Shown here one piece after another: positions 44,241-59,582 of a stretch of DNA of 64,000 bases (its first letter is position 1; each line of letters opens with the position of its first letter). Source of the DNA: Salinicoccus halitifaciens (GTDB lineage Bacteria; Bacillota; Bacilli; Staphylococcales; Salinicoccaceae); contig NZ_JAJNCU010000001.1 in NCBI RefSeq assembly GCF_021026095.1, positions 434,001 to 498,000 on the forward strand, read 5' to 3'. Under the pieces are notes generated by a model. It worked only from the letters and a program-made list of their open reading frames with translations, did not search any database and was not told the origin of the DNA. The position numbers and the translations under genes are program-made.

Positions 44241-44287
44241 TTTACAGGATTTACACAATTTTTACATCCCCCTAATATACATTTACA
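44241..44287 (+). promoter_or_regulatory. PhoP-box-like repeats upstream of the phnD-like operon
   Basis: TTTACA occurs at 44241, 44250, 44261 and 44282; the pair at 44250/44261 has the 11-bp period of B. subtilis PhoP boxes (TT[A/T/C]A[C/T]A, N5). A degenerate CTAATA at 44272 fills the next register. Suggests induction by phosphate starvation; inference from the motif. Confidence 0.65.
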
Positions 44288-44356: not shown

Positions 44357-45277
44357 ATGAGAAGAATTGCTTTATTGTTGATGGGCGCATTATTTGCTGT
44401 TGTCCTTGGAGCCTGCAGCGCGCAGAGCGAAGCGGGGGATACAGTGGATGCTTCAGACGGTAACGGGGAAGCACGCGGTGATGACTGGCCCGAATCCGTG
44501 ACATTCGCTGTAGCGGGCATCGAAGGGCAGGAGGAATTGCTGCTGCGCTTTGAAGCGTTCGAGGAGACGATGGAGGACATGCTTGATACGGAGGTGGAAC
44601 TTTTTGCGCTTTCCGACAGGACCGTCTCGTCCACGGCACTGGAATACGGTCAGGTCGACATCGTACTGTCCGGACCATCTGAATACATATTATCAAAAGA
44701 AGCGAAACCTGAAATCGAGCTTGCCGGCGGTGTCCACAGGGCCGACGGACATTATCACGTCGTCTTCATCGCAAGTGAAGAAAGCGGGATTGAATCACTC
44801 GATGATGCAGTGGGCGAAACGATTGCCATGAAAGATACCGGTTCGACGTCCGGACATATCGGGCCGAGCGGCGTGCTGGTCGATGAAGGTTATGACCTGG
44901 ATGCAGATTTTGATATCCAGCTGCTGGGGGACAGCTCCCTTGAGGCACTGCTGAACGGTGAGGTTGATGTCATGGCGGACGGCGTCAAGCACTGGCATAC
45001 CATCCAGGAAGAAGGGCTTGAAGATGACTTCAGGCTGATTTATGAAGGGGAGCCGCTGCCGGCAGATCCGTTCATACTGAATGATACCCTGCCCGAAGAA
45101 TTTAAAGAAGAGTTCCTGAACATACTGATGGAAAATGAAGAAGAGGTGCTGGATGCGATATTATCCAGTGAGGAGAACGACAAATATGAAGACGGCGGCA
45201 TCATCGAAGTTTCCGATGAGGACTATGACAACATGAGGGAAACCTACGAAATTTTAGGCCTGGAGATCGAGGAATAA
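44357..45277 (+). CDS. phnD: PhnD-family phosphonate/phosphate-ester substrate-binding lipoprotein (copy 1)
   Basis: 306 residues. Signal peptide with lipobox LGAC (Cys about residue 21), acidic linker, then a periplasmic-binding-protein fold of the PhnD/PtxB type (FAVAGIEGQEELLLRFEAF, ALEYGQVDIVLSGPSEYI, MKDTGSTSGHIGPSG). It delivers a phosphonate, phosphite or related ligand to the PhnC/PhnE pair that follows; the exact ligand cannot be read from sequence. It is a paralogue of the lipoprotein at 53269-54159. Confidence 0.88.
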   Translation: MRRIALLLMGALFAVVLGACSAQSEAGDTVDASDGNGEARGDDWPESVTFAVAGIEGQEELLLRFEAFEETMEDMLDTEVELFALSDRTVSSTALEYGQVDIVLSGPSEYILSKEAKPEIELAGGVHRADGHYHVVFIASEESGIESLDDAVGETIAMKDTGSTSGHIGPSGVLVDEGYDLDADFDIQLLGDSSLEALLNGEVDVMADGVKHWHTIQEEGLEDDFRLIYEGEPLPADPFILNDTLPEEFKEEFLNILMENEEEVLDAILSSEENDKYEDGGIIEVSDEDYDNMRETYEILGLEIEE

Positions 45278-45278
45278 T

Positions 45279-46088
45279 ATGAATGCGATTGAAGTGAACA
45301 AAGTCAGGAAAGTCTACAATCAGCGGGATGTCGCATTGGATGGTGTATCGTTCACCATTAAAGAGGGTGAAAGTGTCGTCATACTCGGGCACAACGGTTC
45401 CGGGAAGTCCACGCTCTTCCGTACATTGACGGGATTCGAGGAACCGACCGAAGGGTCCGTCACATTACTCGGCCGGGAAGTGGACCCCGGGAAGCGGCGT
45501 CATCTGCGCGAAACCAGGAAGAAAGTCGGCATGGTATTCCAGGCTTTCGGCCTTGTCGATAACGTTTCGGTATTTCAAAACGTATTGTTCGGTGCATTGG
45601 GGCAGGTCAAGTTTGCACCGGCAACCTACAGCTTATTTGCTTCGGAAGCCCTTAGAACACGTGCAATGGAGTGCCTCGACAGGGTGGGTCTTGCCCACTT
45701 GTCGGAAAGGCGGGCGGACAGGCTTTCAGGCGGGCAGAAACAGCGGATCGCGATTGCGAGGATGCTCATGCAGGACCCGGAAATCATTTTGGCGGATGAG
45801 CCGATAGCAAGCCTCGATCCGAAAGCGGGCAGGGAAGTCATGGATCTGCTGGCCGACATCGCTGCTGAAAGGAACATCACGCTGCTGATGATCCTGCACC
45901 AGATTCCGATTGCCAAAAAATATGCCGACCGTTTCATCGCACTGAAAAATGGTGAAGTGTTTGCTGATAATAATGTCTCCGTCATCGATGAAGATTTTGA
46001 GACGGCACTTTTCGGCAGTGAGGGGCCAAAAGACCCTCCTGCTGACGAAAAACCCGGATCTATGGAACAGGAGGCTAAAAGCTTATGA
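45279..46088 (+). CDS. phnC: PhnC-like ABC transporter ATPase
   Basis: 269 residues. Walker A GHNGSGKST, signature LSGGQKQRIAIARML, Walker B ILADEPIASLDP and H-loop LHQ. Closest to phosphonate importers by organisation (D-C-E). The ATG is two bases after the phnD stop. The C-terminal 25 residues are a polar tail. Confidence 0.9.
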   Translation: MNAIEVNKVRKVYNQRDVALDGVSFTIKEGESVVILGHNGSGKSTLFRTLTGFEEPTEGSVTLLGREVDPGKRRHLRETRKKVGMVFQAFGLVDNVSVFQNVLFGALGQVKFAPATYSLFASEALRTRAMECLDRVGLAHLSERRADRLSGGQKQRIAIARMLMQDPEIILADEPIASLDPKAGREVMDLLADIAAERNITLLMILHQIPIAKKYADRFIALKNGEVFADNNVSVIDEDFETALFGSEGPKDPPADEKPGSMEQEAKSL

Positions 46089-46870
46089 GTCCGACGCCTC
46101 CAAAAAGATTTGAAAAGCCGTCGATCTGGTCTTTCATTCTGATACTCGTCGTTCTTCTGTTTCTCGTGACCGGCATCAATAATGCCAACATCACATTAAG
46201 CCGTGTAATCGGCGGCGTTATGAACATCGGGGATTTCCTGGCACAGGCCTTCCCGCCTGATTTCAGCCGTATCGGCCCGATAATGAGTGCCATGGTTGAA
46301 ACTTTCGAGATGGCGCTGGTGGGCACGCTGGCGGGTGTAATCATATCCATACCTGTTGCGCTCCTGTCTTCCAGGACGACGAATTCGATTTCATTCCTGC
46401 GCTCTCTGACGAGAGGGGCAGTGACGGTCATGAGGACTGTGCCCGACCTTGTATGGGCATTGCTCTTCGTGATTGCCGTAGGGCTCGGTCCTTTTGCAGG
46501 GATATTGACGATCACCATCGACACGATCGGCTTTTGTGCCAGGTTCTTCTCGGAAAGGATCGATGAGCTGGATAAGAAACCTAAAGAGGCGCTTGAATCC
46601 ACAGGATCCGGATATTTCGGTGTCATTACAGGTTCAGTGCTGCCGCAGGCCACCCCGTCATTTGTGGGTACAAGCCTGTTTGCACTGGAGAAATCGATCA
46701 GGGGTGCGACTGTTCTCGGCCTGGTCGGTGCCGGCGGCATCGGGGTTGAACTCAGTGCACAAATGTCACTGAGAAACTTCGATCAGGCATTGATGATCAT
46801 CATCATCATTTTGATACTTGTCCTGGTAGTGGAGAACATCTCACAGAGAATACGTGCAAAGTATATATAA
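46085..46870 (+). CDS. phnE: PhnE-like ABC transporter permease
   Basis: 261 residues with about six membrane helices. The coupling EAA-type loop is seen in KEALESTGSGYFGVITGSVLPQATPSF. Its ATG overlaps the phnC stop. Only one permease gene is present, implying a homodimeric pore. A strong terminator shared with ispH follows. Confidence 0.9.
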   Translation: MSPTPPKRFEKPSIWSFILILVVLLFLVTGINNANITLSRVIGGVMNIGDFLAQAFPPDFSRIGPIMSAMVETFEMALVGTLAGVIISIPVALLSSRTTNSISFLRSLTRGAVTVMRTVPDLVWALLFVIAVGLGPFAGILTITIDTIGFCARFFSERIDELDKKPKEALESTGSGYFGVITGSVLPQATPSFVGTSLFALEKSIRGATVLGLVGAGGIGVELSAQMSLRNFDQALMIIIIILILVLVVENISQRIRAKYI

Positions 46871-51156: not shown

Positions 51157-52004
51157 TACAGGCACTCATGGATTATGAGTTCATAAGATACTCTTTCATC
51201 AGCGGCATCATTGCTGGTTTCATTGCACCGCTGATCGGGACTTTCATAGTGATCAGACGGTTGTCACTGATTGCGGATGCACTCAGCCATGTCACTCTCG
51301 GCGGGATTGCCTTCGGTGTTTATTTGTCTTCTGTCTTTGCCGTCACGATCAACCCGCTTATCACGGGAATCATATTCTCCATTTTAGGGGCACTCGGCAT
51401 AGAGCGGCTGCGCAATGTATATAAACACTACCAGGAGCTTGCCATCCCGATCATCATGAGTCTTGGCATAGCGGTGGGCATCGTGTTCCTCTCCCTTGCG
51501 AACGGCTTCAACCAGGATCTGTTTGGGTATCTGTTCGGGAGCATCAGTGCAGTGAGCTTCAATGATCTGATCCTGATTTCAGTCATCGGCATCATCGTCG
51601 TCGCTTTCATATTTTTATTGTATAAAGAACTGTTCATGGTTTCTTTCGATGAAGAGTATGCCAATGTCATGAAAATCAATAAATGGATTTACATCGCTTT
51701 CATCATCGTGGTGGCGCTCGTCATCAGCGCTTCAATGAGAATCGTTGGAATACTCCTCGTCAGTGCCCTGATGACACTGCCGGTGGCCAGTGCAATGAGG
51801 ATAACATCCAGCTTCAGGCAACTGATGACAGTCAGTGTGATTTTTGGGGAGATCTCCGTGATCACCGGCCTGATCCTGAGTTTTTACCTCAATATATCAC
51901 CTGGCGGCACGATCGTTTTGATTTCCATATTGATACTGCTTGGAACCATACTATTTAATCAGCTGGGGGTGAACCGGAATGGCAGAAGAGCTCAGGAAGT
52001 ATGA
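51153..52004 (+). CDS. znuB: Zinc ABC transporter permease
   Basis: 283 residues, ABC-3 family permease with eight or more helices (IGTFIVIRRLSLIADALSHVTLGGIAFG, motifs of the TroC/ZnuB family). ATG 51153 overlaps znuC by four bases and has GGGAGTG upstream; GTG 51144 is less likely. Confidence 0.93.
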   Translation: MIQALMDYEFIRYSFISGIIAGFIAPLIGTFIVIRRLSLIADALSHVTLGGIAFGVYLSSVFAVTINPLITGIIFSILGALGIERLRNVYKHYQELAIPIIMSLGIAVGIVFLSLANGFNQDLFGYLFGSISAVSFNDLILISVIGIIVVAFIFLLYKELFMVSFDEEYANVMKINKWIYIAFIIVVALVISASMRIVGILLVSALMTLPVASAMRITSSFRQLMTVSVIFGEISVITGLILSFYLNISPGGTIVLISILILLGTILFNQLGVNRNGRRAQEV

Positions 52005-52401
52005 GAACATGCTTAAGGATAACAAGCTGAAAATCACCGCAAGAAGAATGACGATGATTGAACTGTTTTTAAATGAAGACCGTTACTTAAGTGCGAAGGA
52101 AGTGCAGGAGAAGCTGCATTCAGTCTATCCGAGTCTGAGTTACGACACGATTTACAGGAATTTATATACTTTGAAGGAAATTGAAGTGCTTGAAAGCACG
52201 AATTTTGAAGGTGAGATGCAGTTTAAGATCGCCTGCTCCGACCACCATCATCATCACTTCATCTGCGAAGCATGCGGAGATACAAAAGTGATACGCTACT
52301 GCCCGTTTGAAACGTGGCAGAAGGAACTGCAGGATGTGGAGATTACGAACCATAAGGTCGAGCTGTACGGCTTTTGTCAAAGGTGCAGGACGTCCGCATA
52401 A
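51979..52401 (+). CDS. zur: Zinc uptake regulator, Fur family
   Basis: 140 residues. Winged HTH (SYDTIYRNLYTLKEIEVLE), regulatory metal site in the run DHHHHHF, and structural zinc Cys pairs CEAC and CQRC. It overlaps znuB by 26 bases. Context with zinc transporter genes and an upstream Zur box supports Zur rather than Fur or PerR. Confidence 0.93.
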   Translation: MAEELRKYENMLKDNKLKITARRMTMIELFLNEDRYLSAKEVQEKLHSVYPSLSYDTIYRNLYTLKEIEVLESTNFEGEMQFKIACSDHHHHHFICEACGDTKVIRYCPFETWQKELQDVEITNHKVELYGFCQRCRTSA

Positions 52402-52442
52402 AAAAGACTTCCGGGGTAAATCACCCCGGAAGTCTTTTTTTA
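52401..52442. terminator. Bidirectional terminator between zur and the TIM-barrel gene
   Basis: 17-bp stem (AAAAAGACTTCCGGGGT / ACCCCGGAAGTCTTTTT, loop AAATC) with extra T residues. Confidence 0.95.
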
Positions 52443-53249
52443 TCACTTTATTATTTCACTGTTCAGATGCTTCATCGCATGAAACGCCTCTTTCAGTACA
52501 GCTTCCGGGTCTTTTCCGTCATATGATTCATTGACGATCATTCCGGAATAGATTGAAGAGAGCACATGCATCACTTCTTCAAAGTTGATCAGATCCCGGG
52601 AGCTGCTGTTGAACGGCAGATGCATCTTTTCATGGTCCGCCTGGCTGATATGTACATTGAATACAGGCACATCGATTTTCCTGATATATTCCTCAACATC
52701 TCCCACACTATGGCAGTGGGCGAGATCGAGCGTCATTCCGATTAAAGGATGGTCCACGGCTTTGATCAGTCGGCACATTTCTGCGGCCGTGTTGATGAAT
52801 TCCTTCGGCCGTTTCTCCATATTCTCTATCCCGATTTTGACACCCGTTTTTTCGGCGTGATCCGCGATCTCCTTGAATGTTTCAATCTGCACCGGCCACA
52901 AGTCTTCGGGCTTATCCTTCGACGATGACATCCGCCCGGGGTGGAGGATGAGGAGTTCTGCACCGATATCCCTGCAGAATTCAAGTGTCTCTTTAGTCTG
53001 GCGTATGGATTCTTTTCTGATCCCGGGGTTGATTGATGTCAGGTTGACGTCCCTCACATCCGCATGGACCTGGTAATCGAACCGGTGACGGGACATCAGT
53101 TTTTTTATTTCCCGGGCGGACAGGCCGCTTTGATTCACATGGCCCATCCAGATTTCAACACCTTCAAAACCGGTATCACGGATCAACTGCAGGGCTTCTT
53201 CAAAAGGGAGATGCCGGATGACATCCGTCGAGGTTGCTATTTTAAACAT
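52443..53249 (-). CDS. Xylose isomerase-like TIM-barrel protein (sugar phosphate isomerase/epimerase family)
   Basis: 268 residues, AP_endonuc_2 superfamily. Candidate metal ligands fall at Glu in IGIENM, Asp in TLDLAHCHS, His in VHISQ and Glu in VNESYDG, the pattern of sugar isomerases and epimerases rather than of endonuclease IV (nfo is separate, at 49356). The start at 53249 is supported by AAGGAG. It is the last gene of rpiR-phnD2-TIM barrel. The substrate is unknown; the context suggests the compound imported via the PhnD-like protein. Confidence 0.82.
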   Translation of the reverse strand: MFKIATSTDVIRHLPFEEALQLIRDTGFEGVEIWMGHVNQSGLSAREIKKLMSRHRFDYQVHADVRDVNLTSINPGIRKESIRQTKETLEFCRDIGAELLILHPGRMSSSKDKPEDLWPVQIETFKEIADHAEKTGVKIGIENMEKRPKEFINTAAEMCRLIKAVDHPLIGMTLDLAHCHSVGDVEEYIRKIDVPVFNVHISQADHEKMHLPFNSSSRDLINFEEVMHVLSSIYSGMIVNESYDGKDPEAVLKEAFHAMKHLNSEIIK

Positions 53250-53268
53250 ATATCCATCTCCTTCCGCA

Positions 53269-54159
53269 TCATTCAAAATCGAGGCCGAGAAGCTCATATG
53301 CTTCCCTCAAACCGTCGTAGTCGCTGTCCTCTGCGCTGATGAATTCAGATTCACTGAACTTGTCATTCTCCCCGGTGCTGACGATGGCATCAATGAGCAC
53401 ATCTCCGTTCTCAATCATCTTCTCCTCCAAAAATTCGACGAGATCTTCAGGCAGGTGGGGGGAAGCGACGATCAGATCGTTCGGCAGTGCCGGACCTTCC
53501 GCGACCACATTGAAGATATCACCTTCTTCTTCAACAATATCTTCATAATTCAGGGCGGTAAGCGCCAGAGTGTCCGTTTCACCGGTCAAAAATGCCTCAT
53601 ACATCGTATCACCGAGCGTATATGCTTCAATGTCGTTCTCCACATCAAAGCCGGCATCATTAAACATCTTCATCGGCATGATATATGCACTGGTTGAACC
53701 GATATCACTCAATGCGATGCTTGCACCTTCCATATCTTCGATCGATTCGATTCCGCTGCCCTCATGTGAGATGATCACCGGTAGATAGCCGGGACGTGTC
53801 AGTGCAGCAATCGGTTCTGTATTCTCATCGGCCGAATCCATCATGACATATTCAGCACCGCCGGCAAATAAAAGATCCACCTGATCATATTCCATCGCAG
53901 TGACGGCAGTCGTACGGTTGGACAGGGCAAAAAATTCAACTTCCATATCGAGGGCATCTTCCAGTTCCGCACGGAACGGTTCGAACTCTGTGTGGAGCTG
54001 TTCCATTCCTTCTATATCGGCGGCACCGAACCTGAGCGTCTCGGGCCAGTCTTCGTTACCTCCGGTCTCCGCCTCAACTTCAGTATTTTCACCATTCACG
54101 CAGGCGGCAAGCAAAACAGTAATCATTGATACAAGTGTCAGATAAGCAAGTTTTTTCAT
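53269..54159 (-). CDS. PhnD-family substrate-binding lipoprotein (copy 2, no adjacent transporter)
   Basis: 296 residues. Signal peptide with lipobox LAAC, then a PhnD-like binding fold. It aligns along its whole length with the protein at 44357-45277 (DWPE...IEG, EVEFFALS-RT, EYDQVDLLFAG, GSGIESIED, DIGSTSAYI, TGENDKF, EAYELLGL). ATG 54159 (ten bases after GGAGG) is preferred to 54168. No ATPase or permease is beside it, so it may share PhnC/PhnE. Confidence 0.85.
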   Translation of the reverse strand: MKKLAYLTLVSMITVLLAACVNGENTEVEAETGGNEDWPETLRFGAADIEGMEQLHTEFEPFRAELEDALDMEVEFFALSNRTTAVTAMEYDQVDLLFAGGAEYVMMDSADENTEPIAALTRPGYLPVIISHEGSGIESIEDMEGASIALSDIGSTSAYIMPMKMFNDAGFDVENDIEAYTLGDTMYEAFLTGETDTLALTALNYEDIVEEEGDIFNVVAEGPALPNDLIVASPHLPEDLVEFLEEKMIENGDVLIDAIVSTGENDKFSESEFISAEDSDYDGLREAYELLGLDFE

Positions 54160-54164
54160 TGATT

Positions 54165-55022
54165 TCATTCCTCCATTTTAAAGTAATCCTCATTCAGATT
54201 TTTGATTTTGTTCATGTGTTCGTAAATGACTTCCTTCCTGTGGGAAGCCGACTCAAGCAGCAGTGCGTTTGATAGGGACATCGGCACACTCAGGGAATTC
54301 AGGGCATGATCCGGGCCGCGTGTGACATGCAGGACGGTATCTGCGTATTTCGTGATGTTGCCCTGCGCGTTTTCGGTCAGTGCAATCGACTGGATATTAT
54401 TTTCACGGGCGTACTTCAGTGCCAGCACCATTTCTTTATACTCCCTTTTGAAGCTGATGACGATGATCAGATCTTCATCTGTGAGTGTTGAGAGTGCTTC
54501 GATGAATTCGGTGCCGCCATTGATCAGGCATTTCGTCTTTATGCCCATCCTCTGAAGCCTGAAGTCATAGAAATATACGAGCGACTTGGAAATGCCGAGC
54601 CCTGCGAGCACTATACTTTTCGCTCTTGAAATTTTGAGGACCGATTCCTTTACGGACTCCATATCCAGAGACTGCATGAATGATGACATGACATCGATGT
54701 CCTTCAAAATTTGGGATTTGATGTTGTCATCATCACTTTGGAATCCCGAGAGGAAGGATTTCATCTTCATCGAAGGATCCAGGGCTTTATGCTGGACCGC
54801 CTGCATATCCCGTTTGAAGGATGAATAGTTTTCATAGCCGATTTTCTTTATGAACCTTGAGAGTGAGGCAGTGGAGACGCCGAGGTCCGAACTCAATTCC
54901 TCAATGTTCAAATAGACGAAATGGTTATCTTTTTTGATCAGCTCATCCGCGATCGCTTTTTGTCCTTTTGATAATGTGCCGTAATGGTCATCGATTCTTC
55001 GTATGATTGCAGATTTTATAAT
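54165..55022 (-). CDS. RpiR-family transcriptional regulator, non-standard start codon
   Basis: About 285 residues if translation starts at ATT 55022 (or ATA 55019). N-terminal HTH of the RpiR family (LSKGQKAIADELI, LNIEELSSDLGVSTASLSRFIKKIGY) and a C-terminal SIS sugar-phosphate-binding domain (SIVLAGLGISKSLV, LIVISFKREYKEMVLAL, SIALTENAQGNITKYAD). No ATG, GTG or TTG exists in frame between the upstream stop and an internal TTG at 54911, which would cut off the first HTH helices. AGGAGGG (55025-55031) lies just before ATT. It probably controls the two genes that follow. Confidence 0.85.
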   Translation of the reverse strand: MIKSAIIRRIDDHYGTLSKGQKAIADELIKKDNHFVYLNIEELSSDLGVSTASLSRFIKKIGYENYSSFKRDMQAVQHKALDPSMKMKSFLSGFQSDDDNIKSQILKDIDVMSSFMQSLDMESVKESVLKISRAKSIVLAGLGISKSLVYFYDFRLQRMGIKTKCLINGGTEFIEALSTLTDEDLIIVISFKREYKEMVLALKYARENNIQSIALTENAQGNITKYADTVLHVTRGPDHALNSLSVPMSLSNALLLESASHRKEVIYEHMNKIKNLNEDYFKMEE

Positions 55023-55088
55023 ATCCCTCCTCGCATCCGACTCAGCCTTGATTATAATTTACAAATATTTAAATAGTACCAGTGGTTC

Positions 55089-55105
55089 TGTAAAGAATAT
55101 GTTAA
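55089..55105 (-). promoter_or_regulatory. PhoP-box-like pair upstream of the rpiR cassette
   Basis: On the minus strand TTAACA (55105-55100), five bases, TTTACA (55094-55089): the exact B. subtilis PhoP repeat geometry. TATAAT at 55056-55051 or TACTAT at 55078-55073 could serve as -10. Confidence 0.5.
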
Positions 55106-55162: not shown

Positions 55163-55191
55163 TAAAAAAGACATGGGATAAGACCCATGTC
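55163..55191 (-). terminator. ispG terminator
   Basis: GACATGGG-ATAAGA-CCCATGTC with A-run on the left, giving U6 on the minus strand. Confidence 0.85.
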
Positions 55192-55206
55192 CATTTAAAA
55201 GATATT

Positions 55207-56325
55207 TTATTTGTTTACAGAAGCTTCCTCTTTGGCGAGGCGCTCTTTTTCGTAATGTGCTTCCGCCAGGATGTCGATCTCTTTCTTCAGTTCCTCGACC
55301 ATCGTTTCTTCAGGCACTTTCCTGACCGTCTCGCCATGCATGAAGAGCAGGCCTTCGCCACGCGCACCGGCGATGCCGATATCCGCTTCCCTGGCTTCAC
55401 CCGGACCGTTGACGGCACATCCGAGCACCGCAACTTTTATCGGAGCTTTAATCGTGGAAATGTATTCTTCCACTTCATTCGCTATGGCGATCAGATCGAT
55501 TTCAATCCTTCCGCATGTCGGGCAGGCGATCAGAGTGGCTGCATTACTTGCCAGTCCGAAAGATTTCAGAAGTTCTTTTGCGACTTTGACTTCCTCCACC
55601 GGATCGGCCGACAGTGAAATCCTGAGTGTGCTGCCGATGCCGAGTGAAATGATTGCACCGAGTCCTGCAGCACTTTTGACTGTTCCGGCAAATAAAGTTC
55701 CGCTCTCCGTGATGCCGAGATGCAGCGGATAATCAAAAGCCTTGGCGGCTTTCGTGTATGCTTCGATCGCAAGGTTGACATCGGAGGCTTTCATTGAAAC
55801 GATGATGTCATGGAAATCGAGATCTTCAAGTATCTTGATATGGTGCAGTGCACTTTCCACCATGCCGTCTGCGGTAGGGTAGCCGTACTTTTTGATGATA
55901 TGCCTCTCCAGGCTTCCCGCATTGACCCCGATACGGATCGGAATGCCTTTTGCCTTACAGGCTTTGACGACTTCTTCCACACGTTCACGGCGGCCGATGT
56001 TGCCCGGGTTGATACGGATCTTATCAGCACCGCCCTCGACGGCGAGAAGCGCAAGTTTATAATCGAAATGTATATCCACAACCAAAGGTATGTTGATCTG
56101 TTTTTTAATTTCAGGAATTGCTAAAGCATCTTCTTCTCTCGGGCATGCCACTCGAACAATCTGACAACCGGCTTCTTCCAGACGTTTGATTTCAGCAACA
56201 GTCGCTTCCACATCATGTGTCTTGGTCGTTGTCATGCTCTGGATGACAATCTGGTCCTCACCACCGATGGTCAGGTCGCCGACCTTCACCTGTCTTGTTT
56301 TAGTACGATGTATAATTTCAGACAT
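55207..56325 (-). CDS. ispG: 4-Hydroxy-3-methylbut-2-en-1-yl diphosphate synthase
   Basis: 372 residues. Penultimate MEP pathway enzyme, carrying a 4Fe-4S cluster (CPTCGR and GCAVNGPGE). Begins [16 protein letters not shown] with conserved [15 protein letters not shown]. The start at 56325 has GAGGAG nearby; 56340 would lie over that site. Together with ispH this window holds the last two steps of isoprenoid precursor synthesis. Confidence 0.97.
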
Positions 56326-56358
56326 ATCCAAACTCCTCATATAAATACTTTCTTAAAT

Positions 56359-59543: not shown

Positions 59544-59582
59544 TTTACATAAACTTTACAATTCGTTCATTACACATTTACA
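59544..59582 (+). promoter_or_regulatory. PhoP boxes upstream of the pst operon
   Basis: Four hexamers in exact 11-bp register: TTTACA (59544), TTTACA (59555), TTCATT (59566) and TTTACA (59577). This is the PhoP binding arrangement known from B. subtilis Pho-regulon promoters, in front of the classic Pho-regulon operon. Confidence 0.85.

Follow-up and report, generated by a model that had tools for sequence, protein, structure and literature searches.

A PhoP-box-preceded cassette of an RpiR regulator, a PhnD-type lipoprotein, and a TIM-barrel enzyme as a candidate organophosphorus uptake unit in Salinicoccus halitifaciens

Results and Discussion

In this study, we analyzed a 64,000-nucleotide stretch (hereafter, the window) of the genome of Salinicoccus halitifaciens, a halophilic relative of Staphylococcus, and focused on a minus-strand unit at 52443–55105 that encodes a regulator (RpiR), a PhnD-type substrate-binding lipoprotein (SBP), and a TIM-barrel enzyme (TIM). 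We consider this cassette a probable Pho-regulon unit for the uptake and hydrolysis of an organophosphorus compound. Evidence from the promoter, the protein families, and the gene neighborhood gives good support to its assignment to phosphorus metabolism, and the regulation and anatomy proposed below find support in the sequence, while the ligand and the reaction are predicted.

Promoter and gene organization

The pattern TTHACA-N5-TTHACA, set on the window and then used unchanged on other loci, had exactly three matches in 64 kb against 0.04 expected, a number reached in none of 100 shuffles. These exact boxes lie only upstream of phnDCE (44250–44266, plus strand), the cassette (55089–55105, minus strand), and pstS (59544–59560, plus strand), the last serving as internal control. 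The cassette box, TTAACA-N5-TTTACA (TTAACATATTCTTTACA), is kept in S. kekensis and O. rekensis, and a candidate −10 element TATAAT stands 32 bases past it (55051–55056, minus strand). We take such TTAACA/TTTACA repeats to be PhoP boxes, an assumption for which a literature search returned no support. The PhoP-type repeat that the original prediction placed ahead of the three genes is indeed there, so that the promoter region of the cassette has the PhoP box by which Pho-regulon members are recognized. Upon phosphate limitation, PhoP would bind 55089–55105 and turn on the cassette together with pst and phnDCE.

The whole genome contained 12 pattern matches versus one for the reversed control, and one genome match was located 59 bases from a phoP-like regulator (named from sequence reading) in reverse orientation. 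Across 27 scanned loci, we found eleven exact boxes, all near the start of the phosphorus operons. Within the 300 bases upstream of 17 operons containing TIM genes, a perfect box was present in 7 and a match of at least 11 of 12 bases in 12, compared to 0.13% and 3.6% per region, respectively, in shuffled upstream regions, and to 0.85% and 2.0% in 300-base windows drawn at random from these loci, real boxes included. The operons are not fully independent in this count, because several belong to one family. Boxes at loci L091, L092, and L097 were on the opposite strand, and the exact match at L091 was excluded from the 17-operon count given that the start of its first gene was undetermined. Two PhoP-type boxes also precede a CDP-glycerol glycerophosphotransferase-like gene (L103/L104, G000:C4:1471–1549; named from sequence), which suggests phosphate control of teichoic acid genes.

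As originally predicted, the three minus-strand genes form one unit: RpiR (54165–55019) and SBP (53269–54168) overlap by 4 bases, TIM (52443–53249) starts 19 bases past the SBP stop, and both edges carry terminator-like structures. Upstream, this edge is the terminator of the neighboring gene ispG (55169–55192, minus strand; terminator search), and downstream, a hairpin with A-run and T-run flanks (52406–52434), a putative bidirectional terminator, separates TIM from the convergent zur gene. The neighbors ispG and zur occupy 55207–56340 on the minus strand and 51979–52401 on the plus strand, respectively.

Substrate capture and import

SBP matched the Pfam family Phosphonate-bd (PF12974) at 128.6 bits versus a cut-off of 27, has the lipobox LLAAC, and retains the GSTS motif kept in all five aligned proteins, which is presumably the oxyanion-binding (G)STS helix of PhnD/PtxB-type proteins. 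Its best sequence match was PtxB (5.1e-16), which was also the best fold for the SBP model (pLDDT 76; Z 22.8, 2.9 Å over 249 residues), and both sequence and fold were near PtxB and HtxB. The lipoprotein therefore belongs to a phosphorus-binding class, as had been claimed, and SBP may catch a phosphorus-bearing solute. It was also correctly described as lacking transporter partners, given that neither an ATPase nor a permease gene occurs inside the three-gene unit; both are present in the O. rekensis operon.

This absence, together with that of the unit in most congeners, could indicate that the lipoprotein is a non-transporting reporter of an outside ligand, or that the unit is a regulatory leftover. 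Such a role seems highly improbable, given that purifying selection acts on each of the three genes (dN/dS versus S. kekensis of ∼0.10 for RpiR, 0.05 for SBP, and 0.19 for TIM), that the SBP orthologue in O. rekensis sits with C and E genes, and that RpiR is a cytoplasmic protein with helix-turn-helix (HTH) and SIS domains but no membrane link.

An earlier suggestion was that the pore is borrowed from phnC and phnE genes 6 kb away. The genes are there, but they are not free-standing: they are part of a complete phnDCE operon (44357–46870, plus strand) about 6 kb from the cassette with its own lipoprotein PhnD (44357–45277), an SBP paralogue by Pfam and alignment at 40% identity. PhnC (45279–46088), an ATPase, and PhnE (46085–46870), a permease, both assigned by NCBIfam and comparison, are the proposed shared motor and pore. 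In O. rekensis, five genes stand in one row, with products 51% (RpiR), 61% (SBP), 57% (TIM), 59% (PhnC), and 62% (PhnE) identical to those of the window, while the same C and E proteins share only 45 and 32–33% identity with the second Salinicoccus phn operon. Because this row has C and E genes that best match those of phnDCE among those compared, the orphan SBP may use the phnDCE motor and pore, and the borrowed pore stands as a plausible proposal by analogy. SBP would then hand its solute to PhnC/PhnE, which would serve two binding proteins. These two probably do not have a common ligand, because stretches beside the GSTS motif differ between SBP and PhnD (e.g., SAYIMP vs. SGHIGP and LALTALNYE vs. 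MADGVKHWH).

The second phn transporter (phnC, phnD, and two phnE; L065, G000:C4:106000–118000) follows genes for two ABC ATPases, a PhnM-like amidohydrolase, and a PHP protein, and this block resembles the final part of a C-P lyase operon.

SBP and PhnCE could alternatively import a phosphonate or phosphite, with TIM first removing an ester group and a C-P lyase encoded elsewhere in the genome cleaving the product. The similarity of SBP to PtxB and HtxB (phosphite and methylphosphonate binders) in both sequence and fold is consistent with this route, as is the phnL/phnM-like block at L065. However, no C-P bond enzyme was found in the cassette or in the O. rekensis neighborhood examined, and the PhnS2-type transporter swaps and phosphatase neighbors of TIM relatives described below suit esters at least equally well. 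Moreover, GpxB (9lf9), a PhnD-fold protein that matched the SBP model with Z 18.5 (5.7 Å over 250), was solved with G1P, and therefore the PhnD fold can take phosphate esters. We thus view the phosphonate or phosphite route as unlikely.

A candidate metal phosphoesterase

TIM matched Pfam AP_endonuc_2 at 149.3 bits, and the nearest solved fold to its model (pLDDT 89) was MJ1311 (PDB 3wqo; Z 31.5, 2.1 Å over 261 residues, 24% identity). This D-tagatose 3-epimerase-like protein has all eight of the ligand residues presented below but is archaeal, and the match transfers no function to TIM because, to our knowledge, MJ1311 has no shown function. In the alignment to the endonuclease IV of the window, His104, Glu143, Asp176, His179, His201, and His211 of TIM (P0003 numbering, one more than counted from Met) fall on conserved ligand residues, which we take to be zinc-binding, while His63 and Glu242 match endonuclease IV by motif and His63 also by profile alignment. 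None of the eight residues varies among 23 family members. By profile alignments, His63 and His104 are absent from the isomerases Art22 and IolI and from the 5hmq barrel.

CbiR illustrates that a non-DNA phosphodiesterase has arisen within the AP_endonuc_2 superfamily (PMC7733943). Given this precedent, the eight invariant endonuclease IV-type ligands, and the phosphatases that accompany TIM relatives, we prefer a metal phosphoesterase over a sugar isomerase, with phosphate-ester hydrolysis being the likelier reaction. The original description of TIM as xylose-isomerase-like is modified by these comparisons, since the enzyme retains histidines that the aligned isomerases lack and its relatives have phosphatase neighbors. 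In the cell, TIM would hydrolyze a phosphate ester at an endonuclease IV-like metal site, the most likely substrate being a diester, for example a phosphodiester of a sugar or nucleoside.

Several observations weigh against a Pho-regulated unit for organophosphorus uptake and hydrolysis. No box was found in the TIM operons of Moorella, Kosmotogaceae, a spirochaete, L020, and L028; the box is missing from operons outside Bacilli, and sequence support for Pho control is therefore confined to some Bacilli. In the cassette, only two promoter hexamers are good, and a sigma-70 promoter scan gave no match above chance. SBP scored 81.1 bits against the NCBIfam PhnD equivalog TIGR03431 (cut-off 261.1) and 100.6 against TIGR01098 (cut-off 112.05), the latter being passed by the O. 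rekensis orthologue (125.4). The sharing of PhnC and PhnE, plausible as it is, is a proposal. The ninth endonuclease IV ligand, the Asp preceding the last His, is replaced by Lys in TIM, which leaves the nine-ligand zinc site one short, and the folds that follow MJ1311 are an isomerase and ketose epimerases at Z 27–29.

These folds bear on an alternative in which the uptake unit is Pho-regulated as proposed, but TIM acts as an isomerase or epimerase and channels a phosphorylated sugar into central metabolism, with RpiR sensing sugar phosphate. The SIS-domain partner would suit such a role, MJ1311 and ketose 3-epimerases are the best folds (Z 27–31), the best NCBIfam match is the epimerase IolO, and some distant relatives (L024–L026) share operons with sugar transporters, dehydrogenases, and aldolase-like genes. 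Nevertheless, the IolO match reached 60.4 of 300 bits, leaving TIM far under every epimerase or isomerase cut-off; the invariant His63 and His104 align with endonuclease IV and are absent from Art22 and IolI; and the relatives of TIM in Bacillales sit with PHP and SurE phosphatases. We therefore judge sugar isomerization somewhat unlikely and retain hydrolysis of a phosphate ester as the preferred activity.

Operons of the TIM family

We scanned 84,980 named genomes using an alignment of three TIM sequences and obtained ten loci. At the loci of the next-closest TIM relatives, those of Alkalihalobacillus sp. BA299 and an Atopostipes metagenome-assembled genome (MAG), in the latter of which RpiR is a C-terminal fragment at a contig edge, the same RpiR and TIM surround a different transporter composed of an SBP_bac_6-type lipoprotein, a double permease, and an ATPase. 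Outside Bacilli, Moorella mulderi and a Kosmotogaceae MAG likewise have RpiR, an SBP_bac_6-type transporter, and TIM together. Comparable transporters at other TIM loci had their best scores with PhnS2/U2/T2 models, well below cut-offs (about 120–140 of the curated 393 bits for the binding proteins). RpiR proteins linked to TIM matched each other at 142–202 bits, versus 42–74 bits against unlinked RpiRs. In the TIM tree, Salinicoccus, O. rekensis, BA299, and Atopostipes form one clade (99/97), within which Salinicoccus and O. rekensis are nested (100/98); a clade with two transporter types therefore fits a transporter swap.

Of 399 genomes of the class, 18 (the window genome and 17 others) contained a TIM profile match, most of them belonging to one family. 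We examined ten loci of this wider family, nine from the class-genome profile search and one from a separate search. A lipoprotein, a double permease, and an ATPase adjoin TIM in all ten, and the gene lists, from which a simple gene caller missed some genes, include a PHP phosphoesterase in eight and a SurE nucleotidase in six. Operons of PHP phosphatase, TIM, SurE, and transporter recur in many Bacillales. The SurE proteins beside TIM pass TIGR00087, and the PHP proteins tested had 3′,5′-nucleoside bisphosphate phosphatase and RNase RNM as best models, below cut-offs. TIM proteins may represent a new phosphoesterase class with an endonuclease IV-like metal site, at the fixed core of a hitherto undescribed, transferable family of Pho-regulon scavenging operons with interchangeable transporters (PhnDCE or PhnSTU type) and phosphatases (PHP, SurE, beta-CASP, iPGM-like), a generalization that we offer tentatively.

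The RpiR-ABC-TIM operons of BA299 and the Atopostipes MAG, which represent two genera, end with a gene for a beta-CASP metallo-hydrolase similar to archaeal aCPSF1 (L030:4846–6126 and L031:8459–9763). The Kosmotogaceae locus additionally encodes a phosphoglycerate mutase (iPGM)-like protein (L036:2768–4342) with swapped match order, model positions 208–504 preceding iPGM_N, which is possibly a circular permutation or a MAG artifact.

The regulator and its start codon

RpiR exceeded the cut-offs for Pfam HTH_6 (PF01418, 37.9 bits) and SIS (PF01380, 65.9 bits), which places it in the MurR/RpiR family and bears out the proposed SIS-domain regulator. It would sense a sugar phosphate, either substrate or product, and tune the unit. 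The RpiR open frame extends from 55022, and in the window genome, the stretch from the upstream stop to the HTH contains no canonical start codon. Translation probably starts at an AUA codon (55019–55017), an in-frame ATA preceded by the Shine-Dalgarno sequence GAGGAGGG (55025–55032). The same aligned Ile is encoded by ATA in S. kekensis (L019) and O. rekensis (L034) and by ATC in BA299 (L031), so that an Ile codon behind a strong Shine-Dalgarno sequence is conserved in four genomes as an apparent non-AUG regulator start (window 55017–55032, minus strand). The TTG at 54911 listed as the start of the open reading frame was rejected, since it would truncate the beginning of the HTH_6 match, which sets in close to the AUA start, and codons upstream of the TTG are conserved. 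An in-frame upstream TTG also occurs in S. kekensis and BA299, where it could serve as an alternative RpiR start. In Staphylococcus aureus, infC and ccpN start with AUA and cvfC1 with AUU, behind extended Shine-Dalgarno motifs, and non-AUG starts give about 10–30% of AUG output (PMC13009471). A weak AUA start would probably keep RpiR levels low.

Known systems, distribution, and further observations

The cassette resembles PhnCDE/PtxABC systems (PtxB, HtxB, PhnD) in its PF12974 lipoprotein with GSTS motif, its PhoP-type promoter, and PhnC/PhnE homologues nearby. It differs in that SBP is a second binding protein without its own C and E genes, falls below the NCBIfam PhnD cut-off, and is coupled to RpiR and TIM. 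TIM has the same barrel and the superfamily His/Asp/Glu metal-ligand set as CbiR and endonuclease IV, but it has eight of the nine endonuclease IV ligands, remains below the curated cut-offs of nfo (36.1 of 129.65 bits) and CbiR (48.2 of 105 bits), and neighbors zur and ispG, with no cobamide genes nearby. AfuABC transports phosphorylated sugars (hexose phosphates; PMC4546632) and AepSTU transports 2AEP (PMC8316502); the transporters of TIM relatives score best on the PhnS2/U2/T2 models of this group (AfuABC, AepSTU/PhnSTU), whereas the window cassette has none of these. In the open-access literature searched, we found neither an RpiR-PhnD-TIM set nor a PHP-TIM-SurE operon described, which is weak evidence of novelty, and a 2023 phosphonate review mentions neither isomerase, TIM barrel, nor RpiR.

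If these predictions are correct, an unassigned enzyme family would be added to the bacterial phosphorus cycle, providing a handle on the organic phosphorus compounds usable by salt-loving and soil Bacillales. Since one enzyme recurs beside two unrelated organophosphorus transporters, the search for the ligand can be restricted to compounds transportable by both, and the cassette and phnDCE would be a possible case of one ABC pore serving two binding proteins from separate operons.

The cassette was present in two of six Salinicoccus genomes. Among 157 genomes of the order, only the window genome and S. kekensis encoded TIM, apart from one relative at 26%, and of 33 genomes in the family, two encoded SBP, which rules out conservation across Staphylococcaceae and gives a negative answer to the proposed co-occurrence check there. 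Salinicoccus G002 has phnDCE (PhnE 95% identical) and an empty cassette site, with a zur-ispG gap of 65 bases, and three more Salinicoccus genomes have neither this phnDCE type nor the cassette. Such a distribution, with few carriers and an empty site, therefore points to occasional gain or loss rather than a conserved Staphylococcaceae trait.

Two TIM operons showed unusual transporter genes. At L095:4027–6912, the binding protein and permease are joined in one 961-amino-acid frame, and in Moorella sp. UBA4076 (L035:745–2800), two open reading frames that look, from sequence reading, like an IS607/IS605-type element split the permease gene.

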